From positions 1 through 41,518 of IMG/VR virus record IMGVR_UViG_3300007533_000006: a DNA stretch of 41,518 nucleotides. One strand, 5' to 3'. Positions 1 to 15,499 of this stretch are shown here, one piece after another. Source of the stretch: a virus. The notes under the pieces are model-generated. The model was not told the DNA's origin and made no database searches. It was given only the letters and a program-made list of their open reading frames with translations. Numbering within the stretch: the first letter of the stretch is position 1; each line of letters begins with the position of its first letter. A program made the position numbers and the translations under genes.

Positions 1-184
1 CGTATTCCTTCAGTCGCGTCAGGTCAGTCTGTACGTCCCGCAGGGCATCGTCGGCGTGGGCACTGGCACCGTGGGCCTTGCCGAAGGCGTGCAGGTCCTC
101 CGCCCGCTTGACGGCGCGCTCCGCCGTCCGCAGGATCTGCCAATACCGTTTCTCCTTCATGGGGTCCACCTTGATGACGTTCAT
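1..184 (-). CDS. Small charged hypothetical protein, 3' end cut by window edge
   Basis: The reading frame opens with ATG at 184 (residues MNVIKVDPMKEK) and runs off the left edge after 61 codons. Its ATG overlaps the stop of the upstream membrane-protein gene as ATGA, the coupling style seen through this whole arm. The visible part is hydrophilic and predicted helical, rich in Ala, Lys, Arg and Asp, with no recognised motif. If the window ends are joined as a circle, the frame continues for seven more codons and stops just inside the SNase-like gene at the right end, giving about 68 residues. The function is unknown. Confidence 0.6.
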   Translation of the reverse strand, partial: MNVIKVDPMKEKRYWQILRTAERAVKRAEDLHAFGKAHGASAHADDALRDVQTDLTRLKEY

Positions 185-720
185 GACAATACCCATGCCA
201 TCATTACGACAAGATAGGCCCCTGCCGCGAACCGCTCACCCATGGCGACCATGGTATAGACGTGCGGACGGGTGCTGTAAAATGCGTAGGCCAGCAGTAG
301 AGCCAGTACGATACTCCCGAAGACCACCATTTTCAGCCACGGGTCCACCGGCAGGAACACCAGTCCCAACCCGGTAGCAACATATGCCGCAGTGGCTCCC
401 CGCAAGTGCCATACTCGATCATAATAGAAGTATGCTGTGGCCCCGGCGATGATGGTGCCCAGCCCACCCACGGCCAACAGCAGGGGTGGCCAGAAACGGC
501 CGGCCCCCATACCAAGGGCGGTGGCCATCGAGATGAGCGCGATGCCCAGCGCGATGAAGCCGCTGTTAAGCCGCCGCCCCTTGGGGCCGTGCAGATACGC
601 GCTAATCTCATCGCGGCGCCAGTTTAACCGCCGGTTATGCCCCTGCGACCACCACAGGGAGACCACGAAATAGGCCGACAGCACGGCCGTCACCAGTTTG
701 TAGACAGAGATTCCGTCCAT
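181..720 (-). CDS. Multi-pass membrane protein of unknown function
   Basis: This protein of about 179 residues has five or six hydrophobic stretches. One is near residues 8-25, followed by a basic cytoplasm-like segment with RRLNWRRDE, then closely spaced membrane segments from about residue 55 to the C terminus. An AGGAGG ribosome-binding site lies over the stop of the upstream gene. Two adjacent ATG codons are possible (723 and 720), and 720 has the better spacing of 8 bases. No family is recognised. Lying at the end of the early arm, it could be an accessory or superinfection-related protein, but nothing in the sequence proves this. Confidence 0.7.
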   Translation of the reverse strand: MDGISVYKLVTAVLSAYFVVSLWWSQGHNRRLNWRRDEISAYLHGPKGRRLNSGFIALGIALISMATALGMGAGRFWPPLLLAVGGLGTIIAGATAYFYYDRVWHLRGATAAYVATGLGLVFLPVDPWLKMVVFGSIVLALLLAYAFYSTRPHVYTMVAMGERFAAGAYLVVMMAWVLS

Positions 721-732
721 CATCGCATCCTC

Positions 733-999
733 CTAGAGCGTTATGCCGTAGTGCTTGGAGCACCACTCAAGGTCTTCACGAACCCAGTTGAGACGAGCGT
801 GATTGTTGTACACGCCTATGAGCGTAGCGCGCTCTCCACAACGATCCAACATTACTCTAAAATCCCTTCTGTCCTCCACGAAGGCCCGGAAGTCGCCACC
901 TATCCGGTAGACAACCACCCGCCCATGATGCTTCGCAGCTTGGTAGATGCTGCGAGTCCTCCGTTCCAGCCCTGTCTGAACCACCGTTGCTGCCGCCAT
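733..999 (-). CDS. Small basic hypothetical protein (88 aa)
   Basis: The frame is open further upstream to 1167, but that part lies inside the neighbouring gene in another frame. The ATG at 999 (MAAATVVQTGLERR) is preceded by AAAGGGGAT, so it is taken as the start. The protein is basic and mixed alpha/beta in character, with the segment HGRVVVYRIGGDFRAFVED, and ends in WCSKHYGITL. It resembles many short phage early proteins, but no family is recognised. Confidence 0.55.
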   Translation of the reverse strand: MAAATVVQTGLERRTRSIYQAAKHHGRVVVYRIGGDFRAFVEDRRDFRVMLDRCGERATLIGVYNNHARLNWVREDLEWCSKHYGITL

Positions 1000-1012
1000 G
1001 ACCCATCCCCTT

Positions 1013-1420
1013 TCAGTCTTGATCCACGTAGTTCCTGTCCGCCCCGCAGCCATCGTCGCTGTCAGAGAGCGGGTTGCTAGTTTGCCCCTCCTCTTGCTGT
1101 TGTACATACCGGCGCAGGTAGTGTTCCTCCACGAGGAGCAGGTACCGGCGCAAGTCCCGAATGTCATCTAGCGGACCATCCTTTACCCCAGACCCATCCC
1201 GGTCCACAAGAAGGTCAATAATGTCGTAGTCGTAGGGCTCCACTTGGTTTTCCAAGCGGTCCCACTTGCGAGCCAGCATCATGAAGGCCCCGACACCACC
1301 ACGCTTTATCCAGCTAGATCCGTAGGTAAGGTTCTTTTCGTACACCACGCCAGCATCCGCAGCAGCTAAGTAGCGCAGCAGGTTGAAATCCGCAACATCA
1401 TCAAGAACCTTGACAGACAT
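1013..1420 (-). CDS. DUF1599 / Nmad1-like nucleotide-modification-associated protein
   Basis: This 135-residue protein starts at ATG 1420 behind a clear GAGGAG. The features seen are YGSSW at residues 33-37, the basic helix LARKWDRLEN around 49-58, and the acidic helix DDIRDLRRYLLL at 85-96. This order (YG.SW, then K/R-rich helix with RL, then D..D..RY) matches the DUF1599 family, named nucleotide modification associated domain 1. Members are found near DNA base-modification genes in phages, and their biochemical role is unsettled. The start overlaps the end of the HD nucleotidase gene by 20 bases. The family call comes from pattern recognition alone. The polar C-terminal tail has no recognised motif. 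Confidence 0.6.
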   Translation of the reverse strand: MSVKVLDDVADFNLLRYLAAADAGVVYEKNLTYGSSWIKRGGVGAFMMLARKWDRLENQVEPYDYDIIDLLVDRDGSGVKDGPLDDIRDLRRYLLLVEEHYLRRYVQQQEEGQTSNPLSDSDDGCGADRNYVDQD

Positions 1421-1937
1421 GGTACTGCTCCTCATAGTAACTGGCGATCTGATCCACCCCGGGCACGGTATACCGGAGCCCGGAGTTGATGTAGCTGCGG
1501 ATGTTGCGATACACCTCCTGCATGTGCTGGTTACCCAGTTGGATCTCAAAGATGGCGAACCCCATCAAGTCCAGCCAGTCAGCCGCCTTGGCTATTGCGG
1601 TTTCCTCGGGGGTTAGCTGCTCCGCTGCTGGGTAGCTGTGAATATGGTTTTCCTCGGCCCATTTACGCTCCACTGCTCTCAGAGCGATAGCCAATTCCGC
1701 GTTCTCCACTTTGGCTGGTGCCGGTACGTCTCCAGTGTAGATCTCCGCTGCGTCGTGCTCCAGAAGGTGAGTCACGATGGCCAGCTTGTTCACATCTACA
1801 GAGCTGTAGCCTGCGATGGTCAGAGCGATAGCGATAGCATTGGCAGTGTGCTCCCCGATGGTCTGGCCAGTGATTGTAGGGACCGTGTGCAGGCGATCTA
1901 CGTGCATGGCCCGGCGGAAGGTGTCGAGTTCGCGCAT
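1401..1937 (-). CDS. HD-domain 5'-deoxynucleotidase, YfbR-like
   Basis: This 178-residue protein has the metal-binding pattern of the HD phosphohydrolases: H30 in GEHT, H61-D62 in EHDAAEIYTGDVPAP, and D120 in KAADWLDL. The stretch after the HD pair (AAEIYTGDVPAP) is typical of YfbR, which removes the phosphate from deoxynucleoside 5'-monophosphates. Next to a thymidylate synthase-like gene, such an enzyme would plausibly lower normal dTMP or dCMP pools so that a modified precursor is used instead. That role is inferred from context. The start at 1937 has GAGGAG 8 bases upstream. The gene lies 4 bases after the synthase stop. Confidence 0.8.
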   Translation of the reverse strand: MRELDTFRRAMHVDRLHTVPTITGQTIGEHTANAIAIALTIAGYSSVDVNKLAIVTHLLEHDAAEIYTGDVPAPAKVENAELAIALRAVERKWAEENHIHSYPAAEQLTPEETAIAKAADWLDLMGFAIFEIQLGNQHMQEVYRNIRSYINSGLRYTVPGVDQIASYYEEQYHVCQGS

Positions 1938-1941
1938 TAGT

Positions 1942-2982
1942 TCATCTCCTCATCATGAGCCAGCGCCGGCCGGCTTCCACCCAATCTGGCGAATGAGCTT
2001 GGTACTGGATAGCTTCGTCCAGCACCTGTATTGCAAGCGCAGGATCATGAGTATATTTCCACTGCCCCCATGCTAGATACATGGGGAGCACCACCTCATT
2101 GAAAAATCGGCTACGATATGCACCAGACTCTACTGGAATGCCATGATCCCAGTGATAAAAGAAAGTGGAGCGGTCTCCATCAAACATTGTGATGTCGCCA
2201 TCATCGGCAAGAGGAACCCTGGGATGCAGGTGCACATCCTGCTCGGCTGCTGTAATCAACTTGGAAGCTGTATAATCCGCTTCCCTATAAACCCGAGACA
2301 GGCGTCTCCATACCTCTCCGCCCGGACCCTCAGTGTAGACATGGAAGCTGTCGGAGATCTGGGTATAGGTGCCGATTTCGTAGCCGGTATGCGCCGCCAA
2401 CCATTCCAGCAGCATGGAGAACTGGACAGCATTGGCACCATAAGCTCCCCAGATCATATCGTTGGAGCGGCAGCACACCCGCATGTGTAGAAAGCCATGG
2501 CGTATCTTCAGGAAGATCAGATCGTTGCAGGGCAGATCCAGCCCATCATGCTCCAGATCCAGCTCATGGTCCCATATCTGCAGCACCGCCCTACGTGTGC
2601 CGGGATCCTCACGCAACAGGTTAATGACCTGATAGAGTTGCCGGCCCATGCGGGCACCATAAGCCCCATGGAAGCTGGTGCCGTCGTCGCTGTAGTCCGC
2701 CATCCTTTGATTGAAGTATGACAGGAATGCAACATCCTGCCGGCACGCTAATATCCAGAGAGACTCCATCAGATGGAAAAAGGGGTTTGCATCCCGGCAA
2801 GCGGAGAACAAAACTCTTTCCGCTGGACGTCGGTACGTGGTGGCTACGGGGTGCATGTATTCCAACGTCGGACCACCACGTGAATCCTGCGCATTGACGT
2901 GACCCATTTCCTTCCCCTCCAGCATCAGCTCTACGCCGCGCCAAAGGGCTTCATTAACATTACGGACGGTTAGAACTTTCAT
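1942..2982 (-). CDS. Thymidylate synthase / deoxyuridylate hydroxymethylase family protein
   Basis: This 346-residue protein has the thymidylate synthase fold signatures. The catalytic Cys152 lies in LPCND, where classical enzymes have PCH. The phosphate-binding RSND (R172, S173, D175) is present, Asn184 sits in GAYGAN at the place of the uracil-reading Asn, and H214-x-Y216 lies in SFHVY. The retained Asn points to dUMP rather than dCMP as substrate. Phage members make either dTMP or 5-hydroxymethyl-dUMP, and sequence alone does not separate the two. Beside the pyrophosphorylase-like and glycosyltransferase genes, hydroxymethylation is the more likely role. The ATG at 2982 is chosen because of the AAGGCGT upstream. 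An ATG at 3009 is also possible. The gene overlaps the end of the glycosyltransferase gene by 23 bases. Confidence 0.85.
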   Translation of the reverse strand: MKVLTVRNVNEALWRGVELMLEGKEMGHVNAQDSRGGPTLEYMHPVATTYRRPAERVLFSACRDANPFFHLMESLWILACRQDVAFLSYFNQRMADYSDDGTSFHGAYGARMGRQLYQVINLLREDPGTRRAVLQIWDHELDLEHDGLDLPCNDLIFLKIRHGFLHMRVCCRSNDMIWGAYGANAVQFSMLLEWLAAHTGYEIGTYTQISDSFHVYTEGPGGEVWRRLSRVYREADYTASKLITAAEQDVHLHPRVPLADDGDITMFDGDRSTFFYHWDHGIPVESGAYRSRFFNEVVLPMYLAWGQWKYTHDPALAIQVLDEAIQYQAHSPDWVEAGRRWLMMRR

Positions 2983-3736
2983 ACGCCTTCTTCCAGTAGA
3001 CAGTGACATCAAGAGAATCCCCGAGCCCGCCTCTGGTGTGCTTCTCGCGTATCTTTACGAACTCCGGGAATTTCTCCGCCAGTGCCCGGGCCGCCTTGGC
3101 CTGAGCTTCGAGCGATCGGTACCTGCTGCATCCTCCCTGGAGGTTGGTACCCCTTTGATTTTGAGCGTAAAGCGTCCAGACCTTGAACGCGTGACCTTGG
3201 GTAAGCAGTTGCAGAGCAACATCGAAGTCCTCCATGATTCCCAGGGTCGGCCGGTTCTCTAAATAAGCATCCCGGCGGAACGCCACCGCTCGAGTGCATC
3301 GCACGTTGTACACGTGGGGGAGAGGCATATGGTTGTTACCCTCTCGGTGGCTTATGCCGACGTGCGAGTGCTTGTCCAAGTCCTTGGCGACCCGGTTGAA
3401 CATACCATCCAATTCTCTATCAGACATGTCACGCAAACGTGGCTTGATAGAGCCCCTATCTCGGATGTAGAAGCTCAGGTCATCATCCAACATCATAAAC
3501 TTGTCTGTCGCGAACCGAGCGATGTTGATGCGAGTCCGGCTGATGCTCCTACCCCCGCACCTGTCCGCCAGCACCCCAGCGATGCCCGCCTGCGCAGCGA
3601 GCCGGCGGTAGTGGGGCATTTCATCCGAGGGGCAGAAGATAAAGGTGCTCTCTCTCCAGCGCTTGGGGATGGTAAAGGCAGTGTGTTTACTCCCTCGTAG
3701 ATGGTGCCGGCCGGCACTGGGTATTGCGATGATCAT
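2960..3736 (-). CDS. GT-A fold glycosyltransferase, TET-associated (TAGT) type
   Basis: This 258-residue protein begins with a strand-plus-loop typical of nucleotide-sugar binding (MIIAIPSAGR). It carries a DDD metal/nucleotide motif at residues 84-86 in MLDDDLSF and an acidic MEDFDVALQLL segment around 168-178 that could hold the catalytic residue. This order matches TET-associated glycosyltransferases, which are predicted to add sugars to hydroxymethylated pyrimidines in phage DNA. The start overlaps the stop of the upstream pyrophosphorylase-like gene as TGATG, so the two are translationally coupled. The sugar and acceptor are not readable from the sequence. The frame is open upstream to 3817, but that part lies inside the neighbouring gene. 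Confidence 0.75.
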   Translation of the reverse strand: MIIAIPSAGRHHLRGSKHTAFTIPKRWRESTFIFCPSDEMPHYRRLAAQAGIAGVLADRCGGRSISRTRINIARFATDKFMMLDDDLSFYIRDRGSIKPRLRDMSDRELDGMFNRVAKDLDKHSHVGISHREGNNHMPLPHVYNVRCTRAVAFRRDAYLENRPTLGIMEDFDVALQLLTQGHAFKVWTLYAQNQRGTNLQGGCSRYRSLEAQAKAARALAEKFPEFVKIREKHTRGGLGDSLDVTVYWKKAYESSNRP

Positions 3737-4578
3737 CAGAAATACTCCGAAGGCGTGAACTTGGCTCGGACGGAGCCCTCGCCCAGCCGCAGCCGCTCGT
3801 ACTTGTCGTATTCGCATAGACTATGTTCGATGTCTCGCATCTCCAGACCGACATTGCTGAAGTACTTGGGTAGCTTGTGCCGCGCCATCTTCAGCAGCTC
3901 GTGCATCTCCACGACAGCTTGGTGGTCCTTGACTGGAGCGCGTACTGGGCGCCCCCAGAATCGATTAAGGCCCCGCTTAGCCCCGGGGCCGGCATGAGCC
4001 CACGTACAGGCGTCCTCCACCTGCCCCCGCATGGGCGGCAGGTGCCGCAGATCGCTCACAACTTCATAGGCCATGAACCCACCGAACCCTGGGATGGTCC
4101 GCACCTTGCGCCACGTTTCTTCTAGGGAATGGGGCACCACGCAAATGCGGGCACGATGCAGGGGGTCCAGCATCTTGTAGACCACTTGATCAATCTTGTC
4201 CCCGCCCAGTGTCCCAGTAATGATATAAGCTCCTGTGAACACTTTCTCGCCCCGGGCTCGACGCTGCTTCATAACCTTAGCTACCCGGTCCGGGTTCCAC
4301 CGCTTGGGAAAGCCGATCTCGGCCAGAGTAGGGGGCCAGTTAATCTGACGAGCAAGGGCCATAGCGAGAACCATGTTGCGGTGCCCCTCGTAGGGCTGGC
4401 CCCAGTTATGCGTGATCCATTGAGAGACCTTGTCTTGCCAGCGGAACACATTACAGAATCGGTACTGTTGCAAGATGGGATCGTCAGTCCATGGTTGGGG
4501 TAGCCCGCGCGCTCGTCTGAGGAATACCTCCTCCCGCTCCTGCATCCAGTACCAGAGATTATCGGGGTTGCTGCTCAT
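3736..4578 (-). CDS. Alpha-glutamyl/putrescinyl-thymine pyrophosphorylase-like (HhH, HMUDK-helical family)
   Basis: This protein of about 280 residues carries the N-terminal signature WYWMQERE followed by PWTDDPIL (29-36) and YRFCNVFRWQDKV (39-51). In its second half it has a helix-hairpin-helix segment, IPGFGGFMAYEVVSDL (162-177), and then AHAGPGAKRGLNR (194-206). This arrangement belongs to the DNA-glycosylase-like superfamily that includes the phage alpha-glutamyl/putrescinyl-thymine pyrophosphorylases and the helical domain of 5-hydroxymethyluridine DNA kinases. In characterised phages the pyrophosphorylases replace the pyrophosphate on activated 5-hydroxymethyluracil in DNA with an amine or amino acid. 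No kinase P-loop is present in this protein. The start could be GTG 4584, ATG 4581 or ATG 4578. The last is best spaced from GGGAG. Confidence 0.75.
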   Translation of the reverse strand: MSSNPDNLWYWMQEREEVFLRRARGLPQPWTDDPILQQYRFCNVFRWQDKVSQWITHNWGQPYEGHRNMVLAMALARQINWPPTLAEIGFPKRWNPDRVAKVMKQRRARGEKVFTGAYIITGTLGGDKIDQVVYKMLDPLHRARICVVPHSLEETWRKVRTIPGFGGFMAYEVVSDLRHLPPMRGQVEDACTWAHAGPGAKRGLNRFWGRPVRAPVKDHQAVVEMHELLKMARHKLPKYFSNVGLEMRDIEHSLCEYDKYERLRLGEGSVRAKFTPSEYF

Positions 4579-4596
4579 CATCACTCTCCCGCAAAG

Positions 4597-4626
4597 GCGG
4601 GCGGGGCTACCTCCTACCCCGCCCGC
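4597..4626 (-). terminator. GC-rich hairpin, possible attenuator
   Basis: A perfect 10-bp inverted repeat (GCGGGCGGGG and CCCCGCCCGC) with a 10-base loop lies between the gene ending at 4637 and the pyrophosphorylase-like gene. On the minus strand it is followed by CTTTGC, so the U tract is poor. It may slow or partly stop transcription into the modification block, or protect RNA ends. A full terminator is less certain. Confidence 0.45.
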
Positions 4627-4636
4627 TTGCTGGGCA

Positions 4637-5527
4637 TCAGCTCACCTCAATGAAGCCCTTGCGCAGATCCCAGTTGATGTCGCCCCGGGTTCCACCAGCT
4701 TCGATGAAGTCACCGACTGTCTTCACATCCTTGCGGAAGTACAGGTCGAAGCGGTCGGCACTGGCGGTACCGGCGCGCTTGGGGTTCTCCCCGACCAGGA
4801 CCTTGATCTTGGACCTGTCGGATACTTCAGGAGCCCGGCCCTTGCCCATGTTCGCAGGCGGGTAGGGGAGATTGCCCTTGGCAGGCGCCTTACCCTTGGC
4901 GGAGGACGCCTTGGGGGCCTTGGGGGCCTTGGGGGCCTTGGGGGCCTTGGGGCTGGTAGTTCCCTTGGCCATCTTAGCAGTGGCCTTGCGGCTGGGCTTT
5001 GCCGTGCGCTTGGTGCTGTTCATCTTTTCCTCCTTCGTCTCCGAGGTATCGTCGGTCGTCTTGCTCCGGCTGCCGCCGGCTTTGATGGTCGTACCCATGT
5101 CGTCGCTCTCCGAGTTGCGGTTTACTGGAAAAATCTTCTTCCAGATACTGGGGTCATTGTAGAACGTGATCATGATACCCCATACCAACGTCGCCCCCTG
5201 CTGTGGTGAAGTGATCTCCTCCACCGGCTGGCCACCGCATATGTTGACGTGCAGTTTGGCCAGCTCTTCCTCCGAGAACACCTTCAGATCAGATGCCTCG
5301 GTGGCTATGAAATAGGGTTTGCCCTGCTCCGCATATTTATCCGACTCCTGGATTGCCTGCACATGGTCTGTGTAGGCTCCGATGACTCGGGGACCATAGT
5401 CATCATCGTTGCTGATGTCGATGATAAAGGAAGTGCCCACCGGAGCCATCGCCCCGCTCCACTGGAACGGCAGCTCATCTTGACGCTGCTCTTCCGTCTG
5501 CTCCTGCTTCTTTGCTTTGCGTGCCAT
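4637..5527 (-). CDS. Hypothetical protein with a Lys/Ala/Pro-rich histone-H1-like linker
   Basis: This 296-residue protein has an N-terminal globular part (residues 1-130) without a recognised family. A very basic linker follows (about 165-225), rich in Lys, Ala, Thr and Ser, with PKA units repeated in tandem. The C-terminal part contains KVLVGENPKRAGTASADRF and ends GDINWDLRKGFIEVS. The linker resembles histone H1 or bacterial H1-like tails, so nucleic acid binding is plausible. The start at 5527 has AGGAG 9 bases upstream. It is the first gene downstream of the short 5538-5822 gene and sits just before the modification block. Confidence 0.7.
   Translation of the reverse strand: MARKAKKQEQTEEQRQDELPFQWSGAMAPVGTSFIIDISNDDDYGPRVIGAYTDHVQAIQESDKYAEQGKPYFIATEASDLKVFSEEELAKLHVNICGGQPVEEITSPQQGATLVWGIMITFYNDPSIWKKIFPVNRNSESDDMGTTIKAGGSRSKTTDDTSETKEEKMNSTKRTAKPSRKATAKMAKGTTSPKAPKAPKAPKAPKASSAKGKAPAKGNLPYPPANMGKGRAPEVSDRSKIKVLVGENPKRAGTASADRFDLYFRKDVKTVGDFIEAGGTRGDINWDLRKGFIEVS
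4908..4952. repeat. Five tandem 9-bp units encoding Pro-Lys-Ala
   Basis: The unit GCCTTGGGG is repeated five times without gaps on the plus strand. On the coding minus strand it gives repeated Pro-Lys-Ala. The near-identity of the DNA suggests recent copy-number change by slippage. Confidence 0.9.
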
Positions 5528-5537
5528 TGCTGCTCTC

Positions 5538-5822
5538 CTAGAACTGGGCTGTGAAGAGGCGGGCTGCCGCCCCCTTGGTTATGCCGTGGGTCTTGGCAGC
5601 CTGCCGGAAGCGATAGACTGCCAGAGCCCGCTTGTCCTCGTCATCCACGTAGCGCAGGTATTTCTCGTTCTGCTTATGGATGCGAATGAGTCTGATCGGG
5701 AAGTCCATCAGGACCGCGTGCAAATACTTGGTCCCGTTGACCACCACCAGCACCGGGCGAATGCCCCGCAAGTCGGACTTCTTATTCATGAGTCCGTCGC
5801 AATGGTACATGGCGAGCTTCAT
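5538..5822 (-). CDS. Small basic hypothetical protein (94 aa)
   Basis: The frame is open to 5969, but ATG 5822 (MKLAMYHCDGLMNKKS) has a strong GGAGG 8 bases upstream and a promoter just before it, so the shorter form is taken. The protein is basic, with a beta-rich middle (RPVLVVVNGTKYLHAVLMDF) and a helical C terminus (YRFRQAAKTHGITKGAAARLF) that could bind nucleic acid. No family is recognised. It is the first gene of the transcription unit driven from 5876-5904, which leads into the modification block. Confidence 0.6.
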   Translation of the reverse strand: MKLAMYHCDGLMNKKSDLRGIRPVLVVVNGTKYLHAVLMDFPIRLIRIHKQNEKYLRYVDDEDKRALAVYRFRQAAKTHGITKGAAARLFTAQF

Positions 5823-5875
5823 CTTTGATTCCTCCATTCCCGTTCTCCGCTTGACCCTAACTTTCCTGTAAACTG

Positions 5876-5904
5876 AGTATAGCGCAAGTGGGACCAATGT
5901 GCAA
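5876..5904 (-). promoter_or_regulatory. Sigma-70-type promoter reading leftward
   Basis: On the minus strand there is TTGCAC at 5904-5899 (-35), a 17-base spacer, and TATACT at 5881-5876 (-10). It lies in the 109-base gap between the helicase gene and the start of the 94-residue gene, about 55 bases before that start. It would give the host RNA polymerase a separate entry into the genes from 5822 leftward, including the modification block. Confidence 0.75.
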
Positions 5905-5931
5905 GAATCCTGTACCATCCCCGTAGATCGA

Positions 5932-7386
5932 TCAACGTCGCGACTTCCGGTAGTCCTTGAGTGCGTCAAACATGCTCTGCTGCCCCCTGTTCTTCTTGCC
6001 GAGTCCTCTGTACATGGCCTCCTCTATAGTGCCCGACATTATTAAGCGGTGGTTGACCACTCGGTGTTGCTGCCCCTTGCGCCATAGCCGATGGATGAGC
6101 TGTATGTAGTGCTCAAGGTCCCACGTGGGACTGTGCCAGATAATGGCCCTGCCGGTTTCCTGCAGATTCAACCCGTGGGCAGCACTGCCGGGCTGCACCA
6201 TCAGCGCCGGCAGGTCCCCCGCATTCCATGCGTTCTCTATCATGGCCGCCTGCTGCTTGCTCACACCCCCGCCCAAGTGGGGGACATCCTTGCCCAATAC
6301 CTTGCGCAACCGTTCTAGGTCGTGCTCAAAGTAGTAGGCGATGAGCGCCGGCTGTCCTTGCAGCTCTTCCAGAATTTCCAGCGTAGCTTCCGCTTTCACT
6401 AAGTGGAGCTGCTCCCACCGCTCCCGCTGCCGAGACTCCGTATAGAACACCCCGCCTGCTGCTATCTGCCGGCACTTCATGGAGGCTACCCCGGCAGTGG
6501 AAGCGACTACATTGCCCTCATCCAGATCTACGAACAAGTCCTTCTCCACCTGCTCGTATACGGGCTTAACATCGTCCGGCAGTTCCAACCATACTTCATT
6601 CTCTATAAGCGGCGGCAGGGTTTGATAGTCTTCGCTGGCCATGCGCAGCACCAGTGGCCGCAGCTTCTCGTAGATCGCGTCCTCAGCCCAGTCGAACGGC
6701 ATGTAGGTATAACCACCGTAACCAGTGGGATAGAAGTAGTAGTTGCGATAATGGGTGATGTATCTACCTAGAGCTTTTCCTTCATCCAGGATGTAGATCT
6801 GCCCGAACAGGTCCTCCAGCCCCTGCGGCCGGGGTGTGCCCGTCAGTATCCAGCGTCGCGGTATGGTTCCCAGGAGCTGCCGCAACAGTTTAAACCGCTT
6901 GGTGTTGCTGCGCTTGAACTTGGTAGACTCGTCTACAATGAGCAGGTCCCACCGGCGCTTAACGCGCTTACGGGCGGCGACCAGCCATTGCAACCCCTCC
7001 GGGTTTATTACGTACAGGTCTGCTTCTCGCTCCAGAGCTGCATCTTTGTCCGGTCCGTGCAGCATCTCCACCCGCAGGTTGCGGAACTCATGCCACTTGT
7101 TAGACTCGGACCGGGGCATTTCCTTGGACCATACGGAGAACGCTGGCCGCAGTGGCGCCACTACCAGCGCGCTCTTGACCTTGCCCTTGGAGCGCAGCAC
7201 CATAAACGTCTTAAGCGCAATGGCGGTTTTCCCCATCCCAGGGTCCAGCAGTAGCCCTCCGGACATGCGGGACACCAAGAATTCCGCTGCGCGCTGCTGG
7301 TACCCTTCCCAGACATCGGCGAGTTTGGGCTTACCTGTAGCGGTATTCTTCGGATTCGATGGACGCTTCAACTTGGTCGGCGGCAT
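5932..7386 (-). CDS. SNF2-type DEAD/DEAH-box helicase / translocase
   Basis: This 484-residue superfamily 2 ATPase has Walker A DPGMGKT at residues 48-54 (motif I), VDEST in motif II with the upstream LLI strand, LTGTPRP (motif III), and GLNLQETGRAIIWHSPTWD plus QLIHRLWRKGQ (motifs V and VI) near residues 400-445. The wide QxxxRxxRxGQ-type motif VI is typical of the SNF2 branch, whose members move along double-stranded DNA. In phages such proteins often take part in replication or recombination. ATG 7386 is preferred, with GAGG 9 bases upstream. ATG 7395 directly touches the GAGG. The start region overlaps the end of the VRR-NUC gene by 56 bases. Confidence 0.88.
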   Translation of the reverse strand: MPPTKLKRPSNPKNTATGKPKLADVWEGYQQRAAEFLVSRMSGGLLLDPGMGKTAIALKTFMVLRSKGKVKSALVVAPLRPAFSVWSKEMPRSESNKWHEFRNLRVEMLHGPDKDAALEREADLYVINPEGLQWLVAARKRVKRRWDLLIVDESTKFKRSNTKRFKLLRQLLGTIPRRWILTGTPRPQGLEDLFGQIYILDEGKALGRYITHYRNYYFYPTGYGGYTYMPFDWAEDAIYEKLRPLVLRMASEDYQTLPPLIENEVWLELPDDVKPVYEQVEKDLFVDLDEGNVVASTAGVASMKCRQIAAGGVFYTESRQRERWEQLHLVKAEATLEILEELQGQPALIAYYFEHDLERLRKVLGKDVPHLGGGVSKQQAAMIENAWNAGDLPALMVQPGSAAHGLNLQETGRAIIWHSPTWDLEHYIQLIHRLWRKGQQHRVVNHRLIMSGTIEEAMYRGLGKKNRGQQSMFDALKDYRKSRR

Positions 7387-7645
7387 GCTGCGCATCCTCG
7401 CACACAAATACGGTAAATCCCAGCCGGCGGAGCCGGTCGTGGACCCACCCCTGCAACTTGTACACCTTGGCTCCGGGGCGCTTGAATTCAATGAACACCA
7501 CGTGCTTGCCGGGGGTCAACACCATCCGGTCTGGCATGCCACGGGTGCTCGGGGAGGCCAGCTTAACAGCCCACCACCCCCGTTCCTCCGCCATGCGCAC
7601 AAAACGGTCTTCTATCTGCTTTTCAGTAATCACAAGGACCCCCAT
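7331..7645 (-). CDS. VRR-NUC family nuclease
   Basis: This protein of about 104 residues has the small stand-alone VRR-NUC pattern: TEKQIEDRFVRMAEERGW at the start, then GMPDRMVL with the catalytic Asp, VVFIEFKRP with the E-x-K pair, and a C-terminal LRRLGFTVFVCEDAQHA. These are the PD-(D/E)XK residues of a Holliday-junction-type or structure-specific nuclease. Pairing with an SNF2-type helicase gene is a repeated arrangement in phages. The start is uncertain. ATG 7645 overlaps the end of the upstream gene and lacks a strong ribosome site, and GTG 7633 is an alternative. Confidence 0.85.
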   Translation of the reverse strand: MGVLVITEKQIEDRFVRMAEERGWWAVKLASPSTRGMPDRMVLTPGKHVVFIEFKRPGAKVYKLQGWVHDRLRRLGFTVFVCEDAQHAADQVEASIESEEYRYR

Positions 7646-8324
7646 TGGAACGGCTAAAGTGGCACCACCGGCAGTGGTAACCCGGGTTTGGTTTGTAGTG
7701 CCTATCCGCCAGCATGGGCGCGACCTTGTCATCCCACTCCTGTCGGAGCTTCTCGGCGTCCTCCACTTTGTATACCCCGTCTGGATCTTCTCTGCCGCCC
7801 ACCACTTCCCCAGTGTCTAGGTAGGCCAGCTCCGTTTCTACCTCTTCTACATCCGCAATGGCGTAGAAGGCCCCAGTCGCGTAAAGACGTAGCTGCTCCC
7901 CATATCCGTCCCGGGGTTTTCCTGTCTTCCAATCAGTAACCTTCACCACGCCGGGGCGCAGCACTTCCCAGACGTCAGTCTTAATACGGCACCACGCGTT
8001 CGGTGCGAAGTACTCCGTCTCTTCCCACCGGCTGTTGAAAGCCCAGCTATCCTCTACATGCGCTGTCCCATCCTTGTACATTTCGCGCAGCTTTTCCACT
8101 CTGGTTTTGAACCGGAGCAGGTCCACGGGCATACCCATCAGCTCGCCCTTGATGTACCTCTCGGCCATGTCGTGCACCTGTAGGCCCCGCTCCATCGCTT
8201 TATTCTTGGGTTCCGGCAGCTTCTTGACAAATTTGTAGTACGCCAGCCGGGGGCACTTGCTCCACGTGCCGTAGCGGCTGTAAGACCATGCAGTCATCGC
8301 CGGGGGTAGCTTGCTCTTAGACAT
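7623..8324 (-). CDS. PD-(D/E)XK exonuclease, RecB/Cas4-like
   Basis: This 233-residue protein begins with SYSRYGTWSKCPRLAYYKFV, the opening of RecB-type nuclease domains in which the first Cys can bind an iron-sulfur cluster. GLQVHDMAERYI gives the active-site His, and VVKVTDWKTGKP gives the D-x-K catalytic pair, followed by EQLRLYATGAF. The C terminus has CRWCHF and GPC, completing a likely four-cysteine Fe-S cluster as in Cas4 and AddB. It probably processes DNA ends in replication or recombination. ATG 8324 is preferred, with GGGAG six bases upstream. ATG 8330 overlaps that site. Confidence 0.85.
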   Translation of the reverse strand: MSKSKLPPAMTAWSYSRYGTWSKCPRLAYYKFVKKLPEPKNKAMERGLQVHDMAERYIKGELMGMPVDLLRFKTRVEKLREMYKDGTAHVEDSWAFNSRWEETEYFAPNAWCRIKTDVWEVLRPGVVKVTDWKTGKPRDGYGEQLRLYATGAFYAIADVEEVETELAYLDTGEVVGGREDPDGVYKVEDAEKLRQEWDDKVAPMLADRHYKPNPGYHCRWCHFSRSNGGPCDY

Positions 8325-8326
8325 GA

Positions 8327-8566
8327 TCATCTCCCAACATTGTAAACGGTGCCCAGCTCGGCCACCTCTACGGACAGTATCTCCATACGGGGGAGCTTAC
8401 CTCCCTCGCGCATATGCTCCACCGCCTGCTCCACCCGTGCACGGCTGGGCTTGAACCGCCCGGACCCAGCCAGCCAGATTTCCGCCTGCTGTGGTTCCAG
8501 CACCTGTTTACGGGCGCCTCCAACTCTGGGCGCTGCTACATAATGTACAGTGACACGCCAGAGCAT
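8327..8566 (-). CDS. Small hypothetical protein (79 aa)
   Basis: The ATG at 8566 overlaps the polymerase stop codon as TAATG, which suggests coupled translation. An upstream ATG at 8587 would add seven residues (MARFKKL) and cannot be excluded. The protein has a beta-rich start (WRVTVHYVAAP) and a basic middle (RFKPSRARVEQAVEHMR). No family is recognised. It lies between the DNA polymerase and the RecB-like nuclease, so a replication accessory role is possible but unproven. Confidence 0.6.
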   Translation of the reverse strand: MLWRVTVHYVAAPRVGGARKQVLEPQQAEIWLAGSGRFKPSRARVEQAVEHMREGGKLPRMEILSVEVAELGTVYNVGR

Positions 8567-10425
8567 TAATTTCTTGAATCGCGCCATGATTTGAGTCTTG
8601 CCCAACTGGTGCGGGACCACTTCCCGTCGGAGAGCATGGGTACGTCAAATTCTATGGACTCCATAGCCTGCCGCAGTAGCTCCATCTCTCCGCCGTCTGC
8701 TGGACCTGTTATGACGATTTCGTCATGAACGGTGAGCAGCACCCGCCCATCCCGGGACAGACTGTCGTAGCGGAGGAGAGCTTCCTTAGTGCAGTCCGCT
8801 GCGCTGCCCTGAATTAAGTAGTTGAGTAGCTTATACTCAAAGGTTTGCAGCCGGCCCCTGATCTTCATGGGTGGCTCGCAGTAGTACAGGCGCCCGCCCC
8901 ACGTACGGATTGGCTCGCCCGAACGGCCCATTTTATTCAGGTTCTTAACGAGTACCCGCAACCCCGGGAACTGCCCCAGATACTCATTCTTCAGCCGGCG
9001 GAACGTTTCCACGTCTGTCCCCGCAGCGTCGGCACCTTTGCCGGCGCCCATCCCGTAGATCAAACCGAACCCCGTATTCTTCACAGGCTTTCGACTGAAG
9101 CTGGTACCGAGCCGTTTGTTAATGAGGTACTGGGCTTTCTCGTGCACGTCCATAAAGGGGTCTTCCTTATAGGCATGCATGAGAGCGCCATCCTCAAAGT
9201 GCCCCAGTATGCGGAATTCCTGCTGGCTGTAGTCCCGGACGTATATGCGCCGGTCCTTGCTATCCGGCACTATATAGTCCCGCATCGAGGGAATGGGGGA
9301 CAGCTTTTCGCGCAGGGCCTTGGGCAGCTTGGTTTCCTTGGGGGTGGGGATGTTCTGGAAATTGGGATTACTACTGAGCCGGCCGGTGCGCGTACCTTTG
9401 CTGCCGTTGTTGCTGCGCTCGTCCGCTTGCCGCACTTGGTTCCAACTGGTGTGCATCCACCCGCCCGTGTGCAATGCCTGCTCCAGCCATGGCCGACCAA
9501 AGGTCCGCAGACACACTGTCAGCAGCCCCCGGTACGCCAGCACTTCCACTATTTGTGGGTCCTCTATGGCAAGTGGTAGGTTCTCTTTTGACAAGCTGCG
9601 GTTACCCTTGTCCGTCAGCACCCAGCTCGTGACTTTGCCGGAACGCTCCAGTGCGTCCGCCAGCTCATTAGCGCTGTCTACATCCAGTTCTCGGGCCTTG
9701 AGCCGGCGCCGTAACCAGTTGTCCACCTCCTCCACGGAACGTTCCCACTTATGGACATCACGCCGCAGGCGGTTGGTGGCCAGCGGTACGCCTTGTTTCT
9801 CCTGCCGCAGCAGCAGGGGCATGAGGTTCAGCTCTCGTTGATAGGCTTCCTCCATGTCGTCTTCTAGAATCCGGGGGTAGAACAAGTCATGCAGCTTGCG
9901 GGTACGTATAACGTCCCCCTTGGCGTAGCGTCCTACGAGCCTGCCCGGTGCCCTGCTTATGTAGGCGCCCCAACCGCGCCATGTTTTCGATTTGCCCCGG
10001 CACTCTGGCACATTGGCCATGATCCAATCACGGAGCTCCTCCTGTTCCTCCGGCGGCAGGTCCAACCAGCGCTCCGCCATCGGCTTCAGGGAGAGGCTCT
10101 GGGCGTGCGGGTCCACGAGGAAGGCCTCGAACATGGTATCGTGAAATCCGGCGGTGGGCACCAGTGGCAGGCCGAGGTGCTCGTGGGCGACCTCCAGATC
10201 GAACTTAGCGTTGTGCATCAGGATGGGCCGGCTGCTGTAGGCGGCTCGTAGGCGCTTGACGGCGTCCTCTCGGGTGCAGTTGTTTTCCGTCGGGTGCCCC
10301 CATGCCAGATAAGCAGGGCTCCGCCCGGGCTCCCACAATGCCACCCCCACCGGGCGAGGCGGATAGAAGTCCGGGCGGGGTCCAATGCCCTCTGTCTCAA
10401 AGTCCATGGTTATTGGGGCACGCAT
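8566..10425 (-). CDS. Family A DNA polymerase with 3'-5' exonuclease
   Basis: This 619-residue protein starts at ATG 10425. The exonuclease domain shows DFETEG (residues 7-12), HNAKFDLEV and YAKGD, the three metal-binding motifs. The polymerase domain has motif A DYSQQEFRILGHF, motif B RKPVKNTGFGLIYGMG and motif C VHDEI. The length fits phage enzymes that lack the 5'-3' exonuclease domain. The motif B residue equivalent to Phe762 of E. coli Pol I is Phe. Motif A has QQEFR in place of the usual QIELR, so its fingers-side contacts may be slightly altered. It replicates the phage genome and, if the modification block works before replication, must accept modified dNTPs. Confidence 0.95.
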   Translation of the reverse strand: MRAPITMDFETEGIGPRPDFYPPRPVGVALWEPGRSPAYLAWGHPTENNCTREDAVKRLRAAYSSRPILMHNAKFDLEVAHEHLGLPLVPTAGFHDTMFEAFLVDPHAQSLSLKPMAERWLDLPPEEQEELRDWIMANVPECRGKSKTWRGWGAYISRAPGRLVGRYAKGDVIRTRKLHDLFYPRILEDDMEEAYQRELNLMPLLLRQEKQGVPLATNRLRRDVHKWERSVEEVDNWLRRRLKARELDVDSANELADALERSGKVTSWVLTDKGNRSLSKENLPLAIEDPQIVEVLAYRGLLTVCLRTFGRPWLEQALHTGGWMHTSWNQVRQADERSNNGSKGTRTGRLSSNPNFQNIPTPKETKLPKALREKLSPIPSMRDYIVPDSKDRRIYVRDYSQQEFRILGHFEDGALMHAYKEDPFMDVHEKAQYLINKRLGTSFSRKPVKNTGFGLIYGMGAGKGADAAGTDVETFRRLKNEYLGQFPGLRVLVKNLNKMGRSGEPIRTWGGRLYYCEPPMKIRGRLQTFEYKLLNYLIQGSAADCTKEALLRYDSLSRDGRVLLTVHDEIVITGPADGGEMELLRQAMESIEFDVPMLSDGKWSRTSWARLKSWRDSRN

Positions 10426-10426
10426 T

Positions 10427-10816
10427 TTAGTGGTACCCCTGCTGCGCCAGCCCGGTAAACTCTGCCACCAGCTCTCCATCCGCCGCCAGATTAGCCTCAC
10501 TGAACAGGTGCCATGCTTCCTCAGCATCGTGGTAGCATCGGCCCTGCGTCCAGAGTATGTAGGCCATCAGCCGGGGCCGTTCTTCGGGTGGCGCGCGCAG
10601 CACCCGCGCGGTCACGGCCCGGTGCCAGCTCTGCTTGTCAGCCCCCAGCACGGGGCAGTTGCAGTGCGGGCAGGTGACCAGCACCGGGGCCACGGTGCCA
10701 ATAGGCAGCTCCACGAGCTCATGCTTCTGTGTCTCCTCAAATATGCCCCACCACGTGCAGCCCATAGAAAAGAAAATCAGCTCTCCTATCTGTTGCTGTG
10801 CGTCAATGCTGTCCAT
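10427..10816 (-). CDS. Hypothetical protein with a small Cys cluster (129 aa)
   Basis: The protein starts at ATG 10816 behind GAGGAGG. The middle contains CPHCNCP, which could form part of a zinc site, although a second Cys pair is not clear. The rest is mostly helical and acidic at the end (EEAWHLFSEANLAADGELVAEF). Its stop lies two bases before the polymerase ATG, so the two are probably co-translated. No family is recognised. Confidence 0.65.
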   Translation of the reverse strand: MDSIDAQQQIGELIFFSMGCTWWGIFEETQKHELVELPIGTVAPVLVTCPHCNCPVLGADKQSWHRAVTARVLRAPPEERPRLMAYILWTQGRCYHDAEEAWHLFSEANLAADGELVAEFTGLAQQGYH

Positions 10817-11042
10817 CGTATTCCTCCTCAGGCACGATCTTAGCCCGCTTAACCGTCAGCTCTTCTTCCTTGCGGCGCTTCTCCCACTTGTCCTCAATCT
10901 TCCCAGTTACGTCCTTTTTCCGCCCGTCCTTCGGGGGTGGGTCCATGCTGACACAGCGAAAGATTGAACCAAACGGAGTAGGACTGAACGTGCTGGGCTT
11001 GGCCCGGCCGTGCTTGTCGAATACCGCGTAATATTCACCCAT
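10803..11042 (-). CDS. Small charged hypothetical protein (79 aa)
   Basis: It starts at ATG 11042 with GGGG upstream and overlaps both neighbours (8 bases with the gene before, 14 with the gene after). The N-terminal half (MGEYYAVFDKHGRAKP) may be folded. The C-terminal half is strongly charged (KIEDKWEKRRKEEELTVKRA) and likely a single helix. No family is recognised. Confidence 0.65.
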   Translation of the reverse strand: MGEYYAVFDKHGRAKPSTFSPTPFGSIFRCVSMDPPPKDGRKKDVTGKIEDKWEKRRKEEELTVKRAKIVPEEEYDGQH

Positions 11043-11292
11043 CGGAATCCCCTACATACATATCACGCTTCGTAGCAACGTAAGGTAGAACATGGAATCG
11101 TAGCAGGGCTTCTCGCTCCCTCTGCGCCCGCAGTTTATTCAGCCGATTGTAGAGGCGCTCCAAGTGCCGAGGACGCTTCGGTCCCTGCCACTCCAGCACG
11201 AGGAGCGCCGCTACCTGTTCCTCGGTCAGCCCGTGGAGGTGTCGGTTAAGCAGCCTCCACGTTCTGCCGTACTGCCATACCTCATGGTCCAT
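11035..11292 (-). CDS. Small basic hypothetical protein (85 aa)
   Basis: The protein starts at ATG 11292. No strong ribosome site is seen, and coupling to the gene ending at 11298 is likely. The sequence is helical and basic (LERLYNRLNKLRAQREREALLR), with a segment GLTEEQVAALLVLEW that could be a short helix-turn-helix-like or coiled region. The function is unknown. Confidence 0.6.
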   Translation of the reverse strand: MDHEVWQYGRTWRLLNRHLHGLTEEQVAALLVLEWQGPKRPRHLERLYNRLNKLRAQREREALLRFHVLPYVATKRDMYVGDSDG

Positions 11293-11297
11293 GTAGG

Positions 11298-12101
11298 TTA
11301 TCGTGCGCTACGCCGGGCCTTGCCCCCAGCGCTGCGAGCTTTGTTTGCCGGCCCCCGGCGCTTGGGCTTGTTACGCTCCTCCGGCGGGATGTAGTTGGTG
11401 AGATCGTAGGGCATGGTCAGATCCTCGATGATCTCATCCCGCTTGGCTAGCAGCGCCGCGATCTGTTCCTTGCCCTCCACAGCTCCCACGAAGGAGAACT
11501 TGATCTCCGGATATTCGGAGTCCATGACCAGCTCCATCTCCGTAACCACGGCCAGCGGCGGCAGCTTCATGGTGCGGGTGAGCTTCTTGACATAGCTTGC
11601 CCAGTACTTGAGCGATGTTGGAGGCACGCGCAACATGGCGACTTCAGCTTCTTCCACCCCTCCATTCTCCAGATCATCCATGTGTAGCAGGGCCAACCGG
11701 CGCCCGTTCTTGCAGGCTTTGCCGCGTCCGGTGTCCGCAGTACCCCATTCGTTCTGTGGGCAATCAATGCAGAGCTCCGACTGCGGCTCCGGTGCATCCT
11801 CATGCGGTGCCAGATCCTCCTCTGCGCCCCGGGCCACGGCAAAGCAGACCGGGCTGGAAGGATTGTCTGGGTCGAAGCCGCCGACATAGTAGGCGTTATC
11901 CAGACAGTGCTCCAGCACCACGCACTGGAATGGGTTGCCCAGAATCTCCTCGCGGAACGTAAAGTTTCCTCCTCGGATGGAAATATAGCTGCCGCCGCCG
12001 CCGACCCGGGCCTCCATCCCGGCGGATTCCTCCGCCAGTGCTGCCAGCCGTTCGTCGTAGTTGATGACTTCCTTACCCGTAGTACCTTTTCTCGTTGCCA
12101 T
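11298..12101 (-). CDS. Zinc-ribbon replication-associated protein, possibly ssDNA-binding
   Basis: This 267-residue protein has a middle segment with CIDCPQNEWG and GRGKACKNGRRLALL, a Cys-rich loop followed by a conserved basic patch found in many phage early proteins. Upstream is a beta-rich region (YISIRGGNFTFREEIL) with another Cys pair. The C-terminal third has an acidic stretch and ends with a basic Lys/Arg-rich tail (KPKRRGPANKARS). The genomic place, just upstream of the polymerase in a replication operon, fits a single-stranded DNA-binding or primase-loading protein. The sequence does not prove this. ATG 12101 overlaps the upstream stop as TAATG. Confidence 0.6.
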   Translation of the reverse strand: MATRKGTTGKEVINYDERLAALAEESAGMEARVGGGGSYISIRGGNFTFREEILGNPFQCVVLEHCLDNAYYVGGFDPDNPSSPVCFAVARGAEEDLAPHEDAPEPQSELCIDCPQNEWGTADTGRGKACKNGRRLALLHMDDLENGGVEEAEVAMLRVPPTSLKYWASYVKKLTRTMKLPPLAVVTEMELVMDSEYPEIKFSFVGAVEGKEQIAALLAKRDEIIEDLTMPYDLTNYIPPEERNKPKRRGPANKARSAGGKARRSAR

Positions 12102-12334
12102 TACTGCTCTCCGTCGTCTTCTGCCTGTCGTGGCAGGCTGGAAAAATCCCGCGCCCGTGCCGCGAACCGTTCCAGCAGGTCCGCGACATTTTCGGCACAG
12201 TCTTTGCAGGCCCGGAACCCGAGGCTCGGGGCCATGGTAATTTCAATCACAAAGCGGTTGGAACGCTTACAGTAGTTGCAGGAGCCGAGCGCCCGGCTCG
12301 GCCCCACCGTGATGCTGTGGTTGATCCTTGTCAC
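12101..12334 (-). CDS. Small zinc-finger-like protein (77 aa)
   Basis: Two Cys pairs, CNYC around residue 19 and CKDC around 43, can form a treble-clef or zinc-ribbon site. The start is GTG 12334 with AAGGAG about 9 bases upstream. No ATG in this frame lies nearer. The remainder is helical (ENVADLLERFAARARDF). It probably binds nucleic acid or protein. No specific function is recognised. Confidence 0.65.
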   Translation of the reverse strand: MTRINHSITVGPSRALGSCNYCKRSNRFVIEITMAPSLGFRACKDCAENVADLLERFAARARDFSSLPRQAEDDGEQ

Positions 12335-12340
12335 AGCATG

Positions 12341-12556
12341 TCACTCCTTAATAAGGATCTTCAGGCGTGCCCGTAGGTTGCTAGCTAACCAGAGGCGCCG
12401 ATTCCAAAATACGCGCAGCTCCCGGACCTCACCATCATCACAGGGCTCCTCCATCACCGACTCCAGCCGGTCTGTCGATTCTTCCACCTCCGTCACTACC
12501 GCCTCCAGCAGCAGCCGCGCCTCCTCGTCGGTCATCTCCAGTCGCACGGTACTCAT
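12341..12556 (-). CDS. Small acidic helical protein (71 aa)
   Basis: The protein starts at ATG 12556, which overlaps the previous stop as ATGA. It is acidic in the first half (MTDEEARLLLEAVVTEVEE) and basic in the second (FWNRRLWLASNLRARLKILI), and is likely a helical hairpin. No family is recognised. Confidence 0.6.
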   Translation of the reverse strand: MSTVRLEMTDEEARLLLEAVVTEVEESTDRLESVMEEPCDDGEVRELRVFWNRRLWLASNLRARLKILIKE

Positions 12557-12951
12557 GTCCGCCGCACCTGCAAGCTCACCCGGGTGAACGACTCCACGCC
12601 GGGCACCTGTTTCTTATCGGCCCACCGTTCACGCACTGCGGTGATGGAAACCCGGCGCTGGAGCAGATCATAACTCTTAGTGCGGGCGATGTACTTGTAC
12701 AGCGCGTCCCAGTCGTTGACGTTGGCTACCTCATCACGCTTTAGGTAGATCAGTTTGTCACCCTTGCGAACTTGGCTCAGCTCATCCTTGGTGAAGTTCT
12801 GCAATAAATGCTCTTCCGCTTGGTCCCGGTATTGCTTGGCTTCCTTGGCAATGGCGGCGAGTTCCTTGGACTGCTCGTCCAGTGTTAGGAACTCATCAAT
12901 TGCATTGGCCAGCCGCGCATAACCGTTCTTCTTCGGTTTAATGAGCTTCAT
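12553..12951 (-). CDS. Hypothetical early protein with coiled coil (132 aa)
   Basis: ATG 12951 (MKLIKPKKNG) is chosen because GGAGG lies 8 bases upstream. An in-frame ATG at 12966 lacks this spacing. Residues 20-60 form a likely coiled coil (SKELAAIAKEAKQYRDQAEE). The C-terminal half has VNDWDALYKYIARTKSYDLL and a basic end. Similar layouts occur in phage early regions without known function. A terminator lies immediately upstream, so the gene needs readthrough or an unseen promoter. Confidence 0.65.
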   Translation of the reverse strand: MKLIKPKKNGYARLANAIDEFLTLDEQSKELAAIAKEAKQYRDQAEEHLLQNFTKDELSQVRKGDKLIYLKRDEVANVNDWDALYKYIARTKSYDLLQRRVSITAVRERWADKKQVPGVESFTRVSLQVRRT

Positions 12952-12970
12952 GGTCTGTTCCTCCATTCAA

Positions 12971-13021
12971 AAGAAAAAAGGCCCGTGGCTGCTCAAGGGG
13001 GCGAGAGGTTAGCCACGGGCC
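12971..13021 (-). terminator. Rho-independent terminator
   Basis: A perfect 11-bp stem (GGCCCGTGGCT and AGCCACGGGCC) with a 20-base loop is followed on the minus strand by TTTTTTCTTTT. It sits just after the 94-residue gene at 13028. It would reduce transcription from the primase side into the polymerase and helicase genes, a likely early-control point. Confidence 0.85.
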
Positions 13022-13027
13022 AAGGGG

Positions 13028-13312
13028 TCATTCCGCGTCCAGTGGGGGAACCCCGGGGGACGTGGTGAACTCATAATCTTCCTTGCACTTGCGCAAGTCA
13101 GTCACGGGGTCATCCTTCAGGACGTCGTCGTCAAGGAGCAGCTCATCCACCACAAGGTACACTCCGTCGTAGATAGTGAATTCAACCTGACTGGTTGCGT
13201 AGCGCAGCTCCATCACCTTCACTACCTCGTGAGTCCGAGCGTCGTGCATGGTTACCCGCACACTGATGTCGTCCCCTGCGTCGGCATTTTCGATGCGAAC
13301 CTGCTTGGTCAT
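13028..13312 (-). CDS. Small acidic hypothetical protein (94 aa)
   Basis: ATG 13312 (MTKQVRIENADAGDD) has GGAGG five bases upstream. The protein is acidic and beta-rich (SVRVTMHDARTHEVVKVMEL, then VYLVVDELLLDDDVLKDD). Acidic early proteins of this size may mimic DNA or bind host proteins, but no such family is recognised here. It is flanked by a promoter-like sequence upstream and a strong terminator downstream, so it could be expressed as a single-gene unit. Confidence 0.65.
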   Translation of the reverse strand: MTKQVRIENADAGDDISVRVTMHDARTHEVVKVMELRYATSQVEFTIYDGVYLVVDELLLDDDVLKDDPVTDLRKCKEDYEFTTSPGVPPLDAE

Positions 13313-13333
13313 TGAGGCCTCCATTTAGCCGCT

Positions 13334-13363
13334 TGTATAACCCTAGCACCCATAGTACAGCAA
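13334..13363 (-). promoter_or_regulatory. Weak promoter candidate before the 94-residue gene
   Basis: On the minus strand TTGCTG (13363-13358) and TATACA (13339-13334) are separated by 18 bases, in the short gap between the primase gene stop and the next start. Both boxes are imperfect. Support comes mainly from the position before an apparently self-contained gene with its own terminator. Confidence 0.35.
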
Positions 13364-13386
13364 AACCTTACGGACCCAAACAAACC

Positions 13387-15387: not shown

Positions 15388-15499
15388 TTGTCTCTCCGCG
15401 TTGCCCGCTGGGAACCCAATCCCAGAGGTTAAAAGTAGGCGCCAACCCCCGGTCCAGAGTGCGCGGAACACCCTGCGCCGGAATGGAGGTAACGGCTAG

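Follow-up and report, generated by a model that had tools for sequence, protein, structure and literature searches.

The closest described systems to the locus analysed here belong to phages with modified DNA bases. Pseudomonas phage M6, Salmonella phage ViI and Delftia phage PhiW-14 carry the hypermodified thymines 5-NedU, 5-NeOmdU and alpha-putrescinyl-T; what is said below on the M6-type pathway rests on PMC6449724, PMC5977210 and the Pfam family names. Thymines bearing a sugar are known from Bacillus phage SP-15, with a glycosylated dihydroxypentyluracil, and from Yersinia phage YerA41, with a group of about 1 kDa (PMC5977210, PMC9023294), and glucosylated 5-hydroxymethyldeoxyuridine (5-hmdU) was unreported in phages as of 2019 (PMC6449724). 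The TET-associated glycosyltransferase (TAGT) of phage T6 is a DNA glycosyltransferase, the T2/T6 enzyme adding a second glucose on glucosyl-5-hydroxymethylcytosine, and solitary TAGT genes occur in 288 of 753 phage genomes, where a 2026 study left their function open (PMC13216743). Here, we analyse a 41,518-base IMG/VR virus record (hereafter, the window) with five clustered genes, in which a TAGT gene adjoins that of the helical protein HMUDK_hel (HEL). This cluster probably gives rise to glycosylated 5-hydroxymethyluracil (5-hmU) in the DNA of the phage, bypassing the route through kinase and amines.

Organization of the gene cluster and assignment of its products

The window comprises an early minus-strand block (about 180-15,500) followed by late plus-strand structural genes. 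The five co-directional genes run from 4584 to 1013 within the early block, which also encodes a DNA polymerase:

3736..4584, minus strand: HMUDK_hel protein (PF18723), 282 aa from GTG 4584, with alternative ATG starts at 4581 and 4578
2960..3736, minus strand: TAGT glycosyltransferase (PF20691), 258 aa from an ATG overlapping the HMUDK_hel stop
1942..2982, minus strand: thymidylate synthase (TS)-type enzyme, predicted dUMP hydroxymethylase, 346 aa from ATG 2982
1401..1937, minus strand: HD-domain 5'-deoxynucleotidase, YfbR-like (PF12917), 178 aa
1013..1420, minus strand: conserved protein of an unnamed family, 135 aa from ATG 1420
8566..10527, minus strand: family A DNA polymerase (PF00476, E = 2.9e-44)

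The tight five-gene block described in the initial annotation is indeed present, its starts and stops overlapping or nearly touching: the overlaps are 1 nt for HMUDK_hel/TAGT, where the stop codon and the ATG share a base (TGATG), 23 nt for TAGT/TS and 20 nt for HD/fifth gene. Such an arrangement suggests that the genes form a single operon with coupled translation. Promoters and terminators sought in the early region did not rise above chance level. The association itself is far from chance, as 91 other loci also combine the helical protein with TAGT, and almost all of these have a TS gene. No close relative of the window was found in phage records searched at the DNA level.

Profile searches placed four of the five proteins in the proposed families at scores above the Pfam cut-offs, while the DUF1599/Nmad1 label given to the fifth was left without a match. 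HEL, annotated as a pyrophosphorylase-like helix-hairpin-helix (HhH) protein, matches PF18723, formerly aGPT-PPlase1 (E = 1.3e-50, 172.8 bits against a cut-off of 25), and phrog_2396 of PHROGs (E = 5.9e-62). By this family match, HEL is the helical domain of the 5-hmdU DNA kinase with the kinase domain absent. Since only the helical half is present, the addition of amines by a pyrophosphorylase, also part of the initial annotation, does not follow. The AlphaFold2 model of HEL is all-helical (pLDDT 94), and seven of its eight best matches in the PDB, none of them significant, are the DNA glycosylases AlkA, EndoIII, MagIII and NTHL1 or the PaMx11 5-PmdU glycinyltransferase PUGT. These matches of a predicted structure are consistent with a base-flipping DNA binder, without proving it. 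A profile comparison of HEL with the family of the amino-acid:DNA transferase, ADDT (E = 0.018, probability 2.5%) was too weak to claim homology.

The glycosyltransferase was correctly recognised as TET-associated: it matches PF20691 (E = 1e-14, 55.4 bits against a curated cut-off of 27.5) and phrog_842 (E = 7.7e-34). Its acidic, putatively metal-binding DDD motif (D111-D113 of the open reading frame, ORF) is invariant in 44 sequences. The TAGT model (pLDDT 90) has a GT-A-like fold, with a Foldseek probability of 1.00 to glycosyltransferases and other sugar-nucleotide enzymes. Comparison of the HEL and TAGT profiles with the sequences of solved structures gave no meaningful match.

The TS-type enzyme belongs to PF00303 (E = 1.4e-13) and phrog_5131 (E = 2.3e-90), and its catalytic Cys162 and uracil-type Asn194 (in the motif YGANAVQFS, numbering of the 356-aa ORF) agree with the annotation as a TS-like enzyme of uracil type. 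Asn194 aligns with the Asn of Bacillus subtilis thymidylate synthase and with the Asp of the CMP hydroxymethylase MilA in their solved structures. MilA is at the same time the closest solved structure to the window enzyme (E = 2e-19). The identity of a cytosine-type hydroxymethylase, which in T-even phages goes with Asp at this position, was rejected on the basis of Asn194. The Asn-type residue pattern supports uracil as the substrate and hence a predicted thymine-type product. The same type was found in 89 of 91 TS genes of loci combining HEL and TAGT, and in 22 of 23 from loci combining HEL and the kinase, M6 among them.

The HD protein, expected to be a 5'-nucleotidase, matches PF12917 (YfbR-like; E = 6e-16, 59.1 bits against a cut-off of 25.9). 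It scores 35.6 of the 122 needed for the NCBIfam equivalog NF003009, which leaves the exact enzyme unassigned by this model. For the 1013-1420 protein, the DUF1599/Nmad1 label was discarded: neither this protein nor its eight homologues match any Pfam family (nine members, E threshold of 1), and the protein matched no NCBIfam model. Its family is strongly conserved, with 31 invariant columns in nine sequences and a core YGxSWxxRGGxGAFxxxARKWDRxEN...DLRRYL, and is present in 61 of 92 TAGT loci. The TS proteins of Brevibacterium phage LuckyBarnes and Glutamicibacter phage Montesquieu (L003 3436-4989; L193 11379-13022) bear a C-terminal extension, which in LuckyBarnes resembles the fifth protein of the window by eye. 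The extension in Montesquieu matches the profile of the fifth protein (E = 3.6e-5), a hint that this family is functionally linked to the hydroxymethylase.

Kinase and amination genes

No ORF across the 41.5 kb matched the profiles of the PF18748 kinase or of ADDT, pyridoxal phosphate (PLP) and radical S-adenosylmethionine (radical-SAM) enzymes, even with the HMMER filters switched off, apart from a below-cut-off hit of the ADDT profile PF18724 on HEL itself (E = 0.068). The sole P-loop motif of the window lies in a 122-aa minus-strand ORF (39543-39911) in the late gene block. In M6, the gene adjoining that of HEL encodes PF18748 (7.7e-18), with a PF18724 transferase gene nearby, and in Bacillus phage Goe26 PF18748 and PF18723 are naturally fused in one ORF.

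The same separation appears in the survey presented below. ADDT accompanies 14 of 23 kinase loci and none of 92 TAGT loci, and M6-like amine enzymes (PLP and radical-SAM) are confined to the kinase loci. Since the window has neither kinase nor ADDT, and ADDT is missing from the TAGT loci, the glycosyltransferase seems to stand in for the amination branch and not to supplement it. Thus, the amines or amino acids that the initial annotation expected to be added through the pyrophosphorylase find no support here; its prediction of a 5-hmdU-derived, thymine-type modification with a sugar is supported.

Partners of HEL in other phages

Alignments of HEL and TAGT were used to scan IMG/VR, HEL also against GTDB genomes; cultured phages were added and overlapping loci removed. 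Among 129 HEL loci, 92 contain TAGT, 23 the kinase and five a GT-B-type glycosyltransferase; no partner was found in nine, and TAGT and kinase never occur together. TAGT, HEL and TS were found together in 89 of 117 surveyed contigs. The gap between the HEL and TAGT genes has a median of 10 bp, with both gene orders represented. For 62 dereplicated HEL proteins (<75% identity), 8.3 co-occurrences of TAGT and kinase were expected and none was seen (Fisher test, 2e-8, uncorrected for kinship).

The HEL tree shows eight changes between the kinase and TAGT labels, and a single kinase clade is rejected (approximately unbiased test, p = 6e-4), which argues for partners having been swapped repeatedly. 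Such repeated swapping in the course of evolution is well supported. The evidence for mutual exclusion of TAGT and kinase in these loci is strong, though not formal proof after correction for kinship.

The GT-B group is heterogeneous. In L096, the partner matches PF00534 just below the cut-off (E = 1.9e-5), and L185 encodes an apparently similar protein, whereas those of L022, L027 and L093 form a further family without a Pfam match, GT-B-like by eye only.

Cultured phages provide examples of both main arrangements. LuckyBarnes (NC_047851) encodes an Asn-type TS, two TAGTs and HEL, all above the Pfam cut-offs and in the order TS-TAGT-TAGT-HEL, and a search of 50.0 of its 50.8 kb found no kinase. 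HEL is combined with TAGT in Microbacterium phage Neferthena and with an adjacent P-loop nucleotide kinase (PF18751) in Microbacterium phage Guetzie, where the 22.8 kb read contain no TAGT. TS enzymes of the Cys-Thr...Asp (CMP/dCMP) type occur in Neferthena, Guetzie and contig L029, all of which bear HEL (L192 5426-6292; L203 5077-5883; L029 10964-11857). Judging from these Asp-type enzymes, HEL may also serve hydroxymethylcytosine.

Neighbouring genes and variant loci

Directly upstream of HEL, the gene at 4637-5527 (minus strand) encodes a histone-H1-like protein with Lys/Ala/Pro repeats (KAPKAPKAPKAP). Many TAGT loci have a profile match to it in the same position, although such matches may be overstated owing to low complexity. 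In the structural block, a 989-aa protein (23365-26334, plus strand) combines a GT4/GT1 glycosyltransferase with a methyltransferase and a GT2 domain; it may assemble a glycan, or methylate one, on the virion or the DNA. A scan of IMG/VR for close relatives of this protein found none.

Several surveyed loci depart from the common arrangement. L021 (3324-5063) encodes a 579-aa fusion of TAGT with a radical-SAM/SPASM enzyme. A radical-SAM gene of the same kind lies in L022 (7311-9352) after the GT-B-like gene that neighbours HEL, which suggests that the sugar or the base is processed further. Two contigs, from Erythrobacteraceae and Sphingomonadaceae (L181 898-3077 and L188 9854-12109), have HEL but no gene for TS, TAGT or kinase. 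The HEL gene adjoins a dCTP-deaminase-like gene (PF22769 in L181) and a 181-aa gene, in an arrangement resembling the aGPT-Pplase defence candidates of PMC13092281. In locus L032 (9066-10873), the HEL gene is unusually duplicated in tandem, with a kinase gene after the pair.

Proposed pathway and alternative explanations

In the pathway that we propose, the TS-type enzyme, judging by its family, Cys and Asn, would convert dUMP to 5-hydroxymethyl-dUMP, while the HD nucleotidase could clear competing deoxynucleoside monophosphates such as dTMP. The phage family A polymerase (PF00476) would then insert 5-hmdU in place of thymine. HEL would bind the DNA and present the 5-hmdU base to TAGT rather than to a kinase, and TAGT would move a sugar from a nucleotide-sugar onto the hydroxymethyl group, the base structure and the sugar being themselves predictions. 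T4 beta-glucosyltransferase (beta-GT) glucosylates 5-hmU in duplex DNA only if it is mispaired (PMC4111573). This restriction provides a rationale for a helper exposing the properly paired base.

Several observations weigh against this pathway. The resemblance of HEL to HhH DNA glycosylases is not significant (best E = 1.0, TM-scores of 0.27-0.45 normalised by query length), and two loci with HEL and TAGT have an Asp-type (cytosine) enzyme. The surveyed loci were selected by similarity to the window, so that their frequencies are not prevalences, and the contigs are partial. Only four kinship-independent pairs lie on well-supported branches of the tree; TAGT never goes in the same direction as the kinase in them, but four pairs are too few for the sign test to reach significance. 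Finally, nine TAGT loci have no HEL; most of these lie on fragmentary contigs, but a complete phage genome of 40.4 kb (MW202897) is among them, indicating that TAGT does not always need HEL.

These HEL-less loci, with their one complete genome, speak for an alternative in which TAGT glycosylates 5-hmdU alone and HEL has a separate role, for instance shielding 5-hmdU from host DNA glycosylases, which it weakly resembles, or marking sites. Furthermore, the TG/TC preference of the modified sites of M6 has been ascribed to the 5hmdU kinase (PMC6449724). We nevertheless find this alternative unlikely, since HEL otherwise goes with an enzyme that acts on 5-hmdU, in Goe26 even fused to the kinase, and these partners exclude each other in the survey.

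There is very little probability that TAGT adds its sugar to the virion or the cell surface and that plain 5-hmdU is left in the DNA. The glycosyltransferase protein encoded among the late genes (23365-26334) shows that the phage has another enzyme of this kind, but TAGT lies in the early operon beside TS, in overlap with the HEL gene, and is kept with HEL and TS in the 89 contigs counted above; in other phages, the kinase occupies its place beside HEL.

Slighter still are the chances of the scheme of the initial annotation, in which the HhH protein pyrophosphorylates 5-hmdU and adds an amine or amino acid, a sugar being added as well: the former name aGPT-PPlase1, the precedent of M6 and ViI and the presence of HEL favour it, whereas the window has no kinase domain, ADDT, PLP or radical-SAM enzyme, none of the 92 TAGT loci has ADDT, and kinase and TAGT never meet. 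A cytosine-derived base like the T-even glycosylated 5-hydroxymethylcytosine (5-hmC) is just as improbable, for although TAGT is best known from 5-hmC phages and the closest TS-type structure is MilA, the window enzyme has PCN...Asn194 and not the CT...Asp of MilA, Neferthena and Guetzie, HEL is named for 5-hmdU, and the thymine-modifying M6 has the same TS type.

Glycosylation of 5-hmdU by TAGT together with HEL is the reading that we retain for the window. Its extension to the whole family is more tentative, with chances that we put a little below even: HMUDK_hel would be an interchangeable base-presenting module with at least three unrelated partners (P-loop kinase, GT-A TAGT and GT-B), re-paired many times, making a class of glycosylated 5-hmU DNA, or cytosine in a few phages, undescribed in phages. 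The partner pattern offers a predicted role for many solitary TAGTs, namely glycosylation of 5-hmdU (or 5-hmC) with HMUDK_hel. It also implies that amine-bearing thymine is predicted not by HMUDK_hel alone but by the adjoining catalytic gene, so that the "pyrophosphorylase" family has to be re-read. If true, type IV restriction systems and defences based on DNA glycosylases would meet a new substrate in such DNA, and HEL and TAGT would provide a two-part enzyme for tagging 5-hmU in DNA.

Comparison with known systems

The window shares the Asn-type TS, the HD nucleotidase and HMUDK_hel with M6, ViI and PhiW-14, and in M6 these genes have the same neighbourhood beside a helicase and the DNA polymerase. 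It differs from these phages by having TAGT instead of the 5-hmdU kinase domain, ADDT and the PLP and radical-SAM enzymes. With the T2/T6 enzyme, the TAGT of the window shares PF20691, the GT-A-like fold and membership of a DNA glycosyltransferase family, but here the hydroxymethylase is of uracil and not dCMP type, and TAGT is partnered with HMUDK_hel. Since no alpha-GT or beta-GT was found in the window, TAGT would add the first sugar.

Base J of kinetoplastids is a glucosylated 5-hmU made on DNA by the JBP hydroxylases and the glucosyltransferase JGT. The predicted product of the window is of the same kind, but its 5-hmdU would arise as a nucleotide through the TS-type enzyme; no TET/JBP dioxygenase was found among the window ORFs scanned with Pfam. 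If the prediction is true, the system would be a bacteriophage counterpart of base J. As for the sugar-bearing thymines of SP-15 and YerA41, neither is tied to HMUDK_hel and TAGT in PMC5977210 and PMC9023294.

The closest gene set is that of HTVC023P-type pelagiphages, where TS, aGPT-PPlase1, a 5'-deoxynucleotidase and a "beta-glucosyl-HMC-alpha-glucosyltransferase" were found co-located in 2022; the same four families stand together near the polymerase as in the window (PMC9599517). That set was read as M6-like thymidine hypermodification, and the parts of that publication consulted here name no base and make no mention of a missing kinase or a partner swap (PMC9599517). The window phage represents a lineage distinct from these pelagiphages, as it has no phage match at the DNA level. 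Collectively, the pairing of HMUDK_hel with either a kinase or a glycosyltransferase, the kinase being missing here, appears to be new, and since HEL is paired in the window with a glycosyltransferase instead of a kinase, the block predicts direct glycosylation of 5-hmdU.

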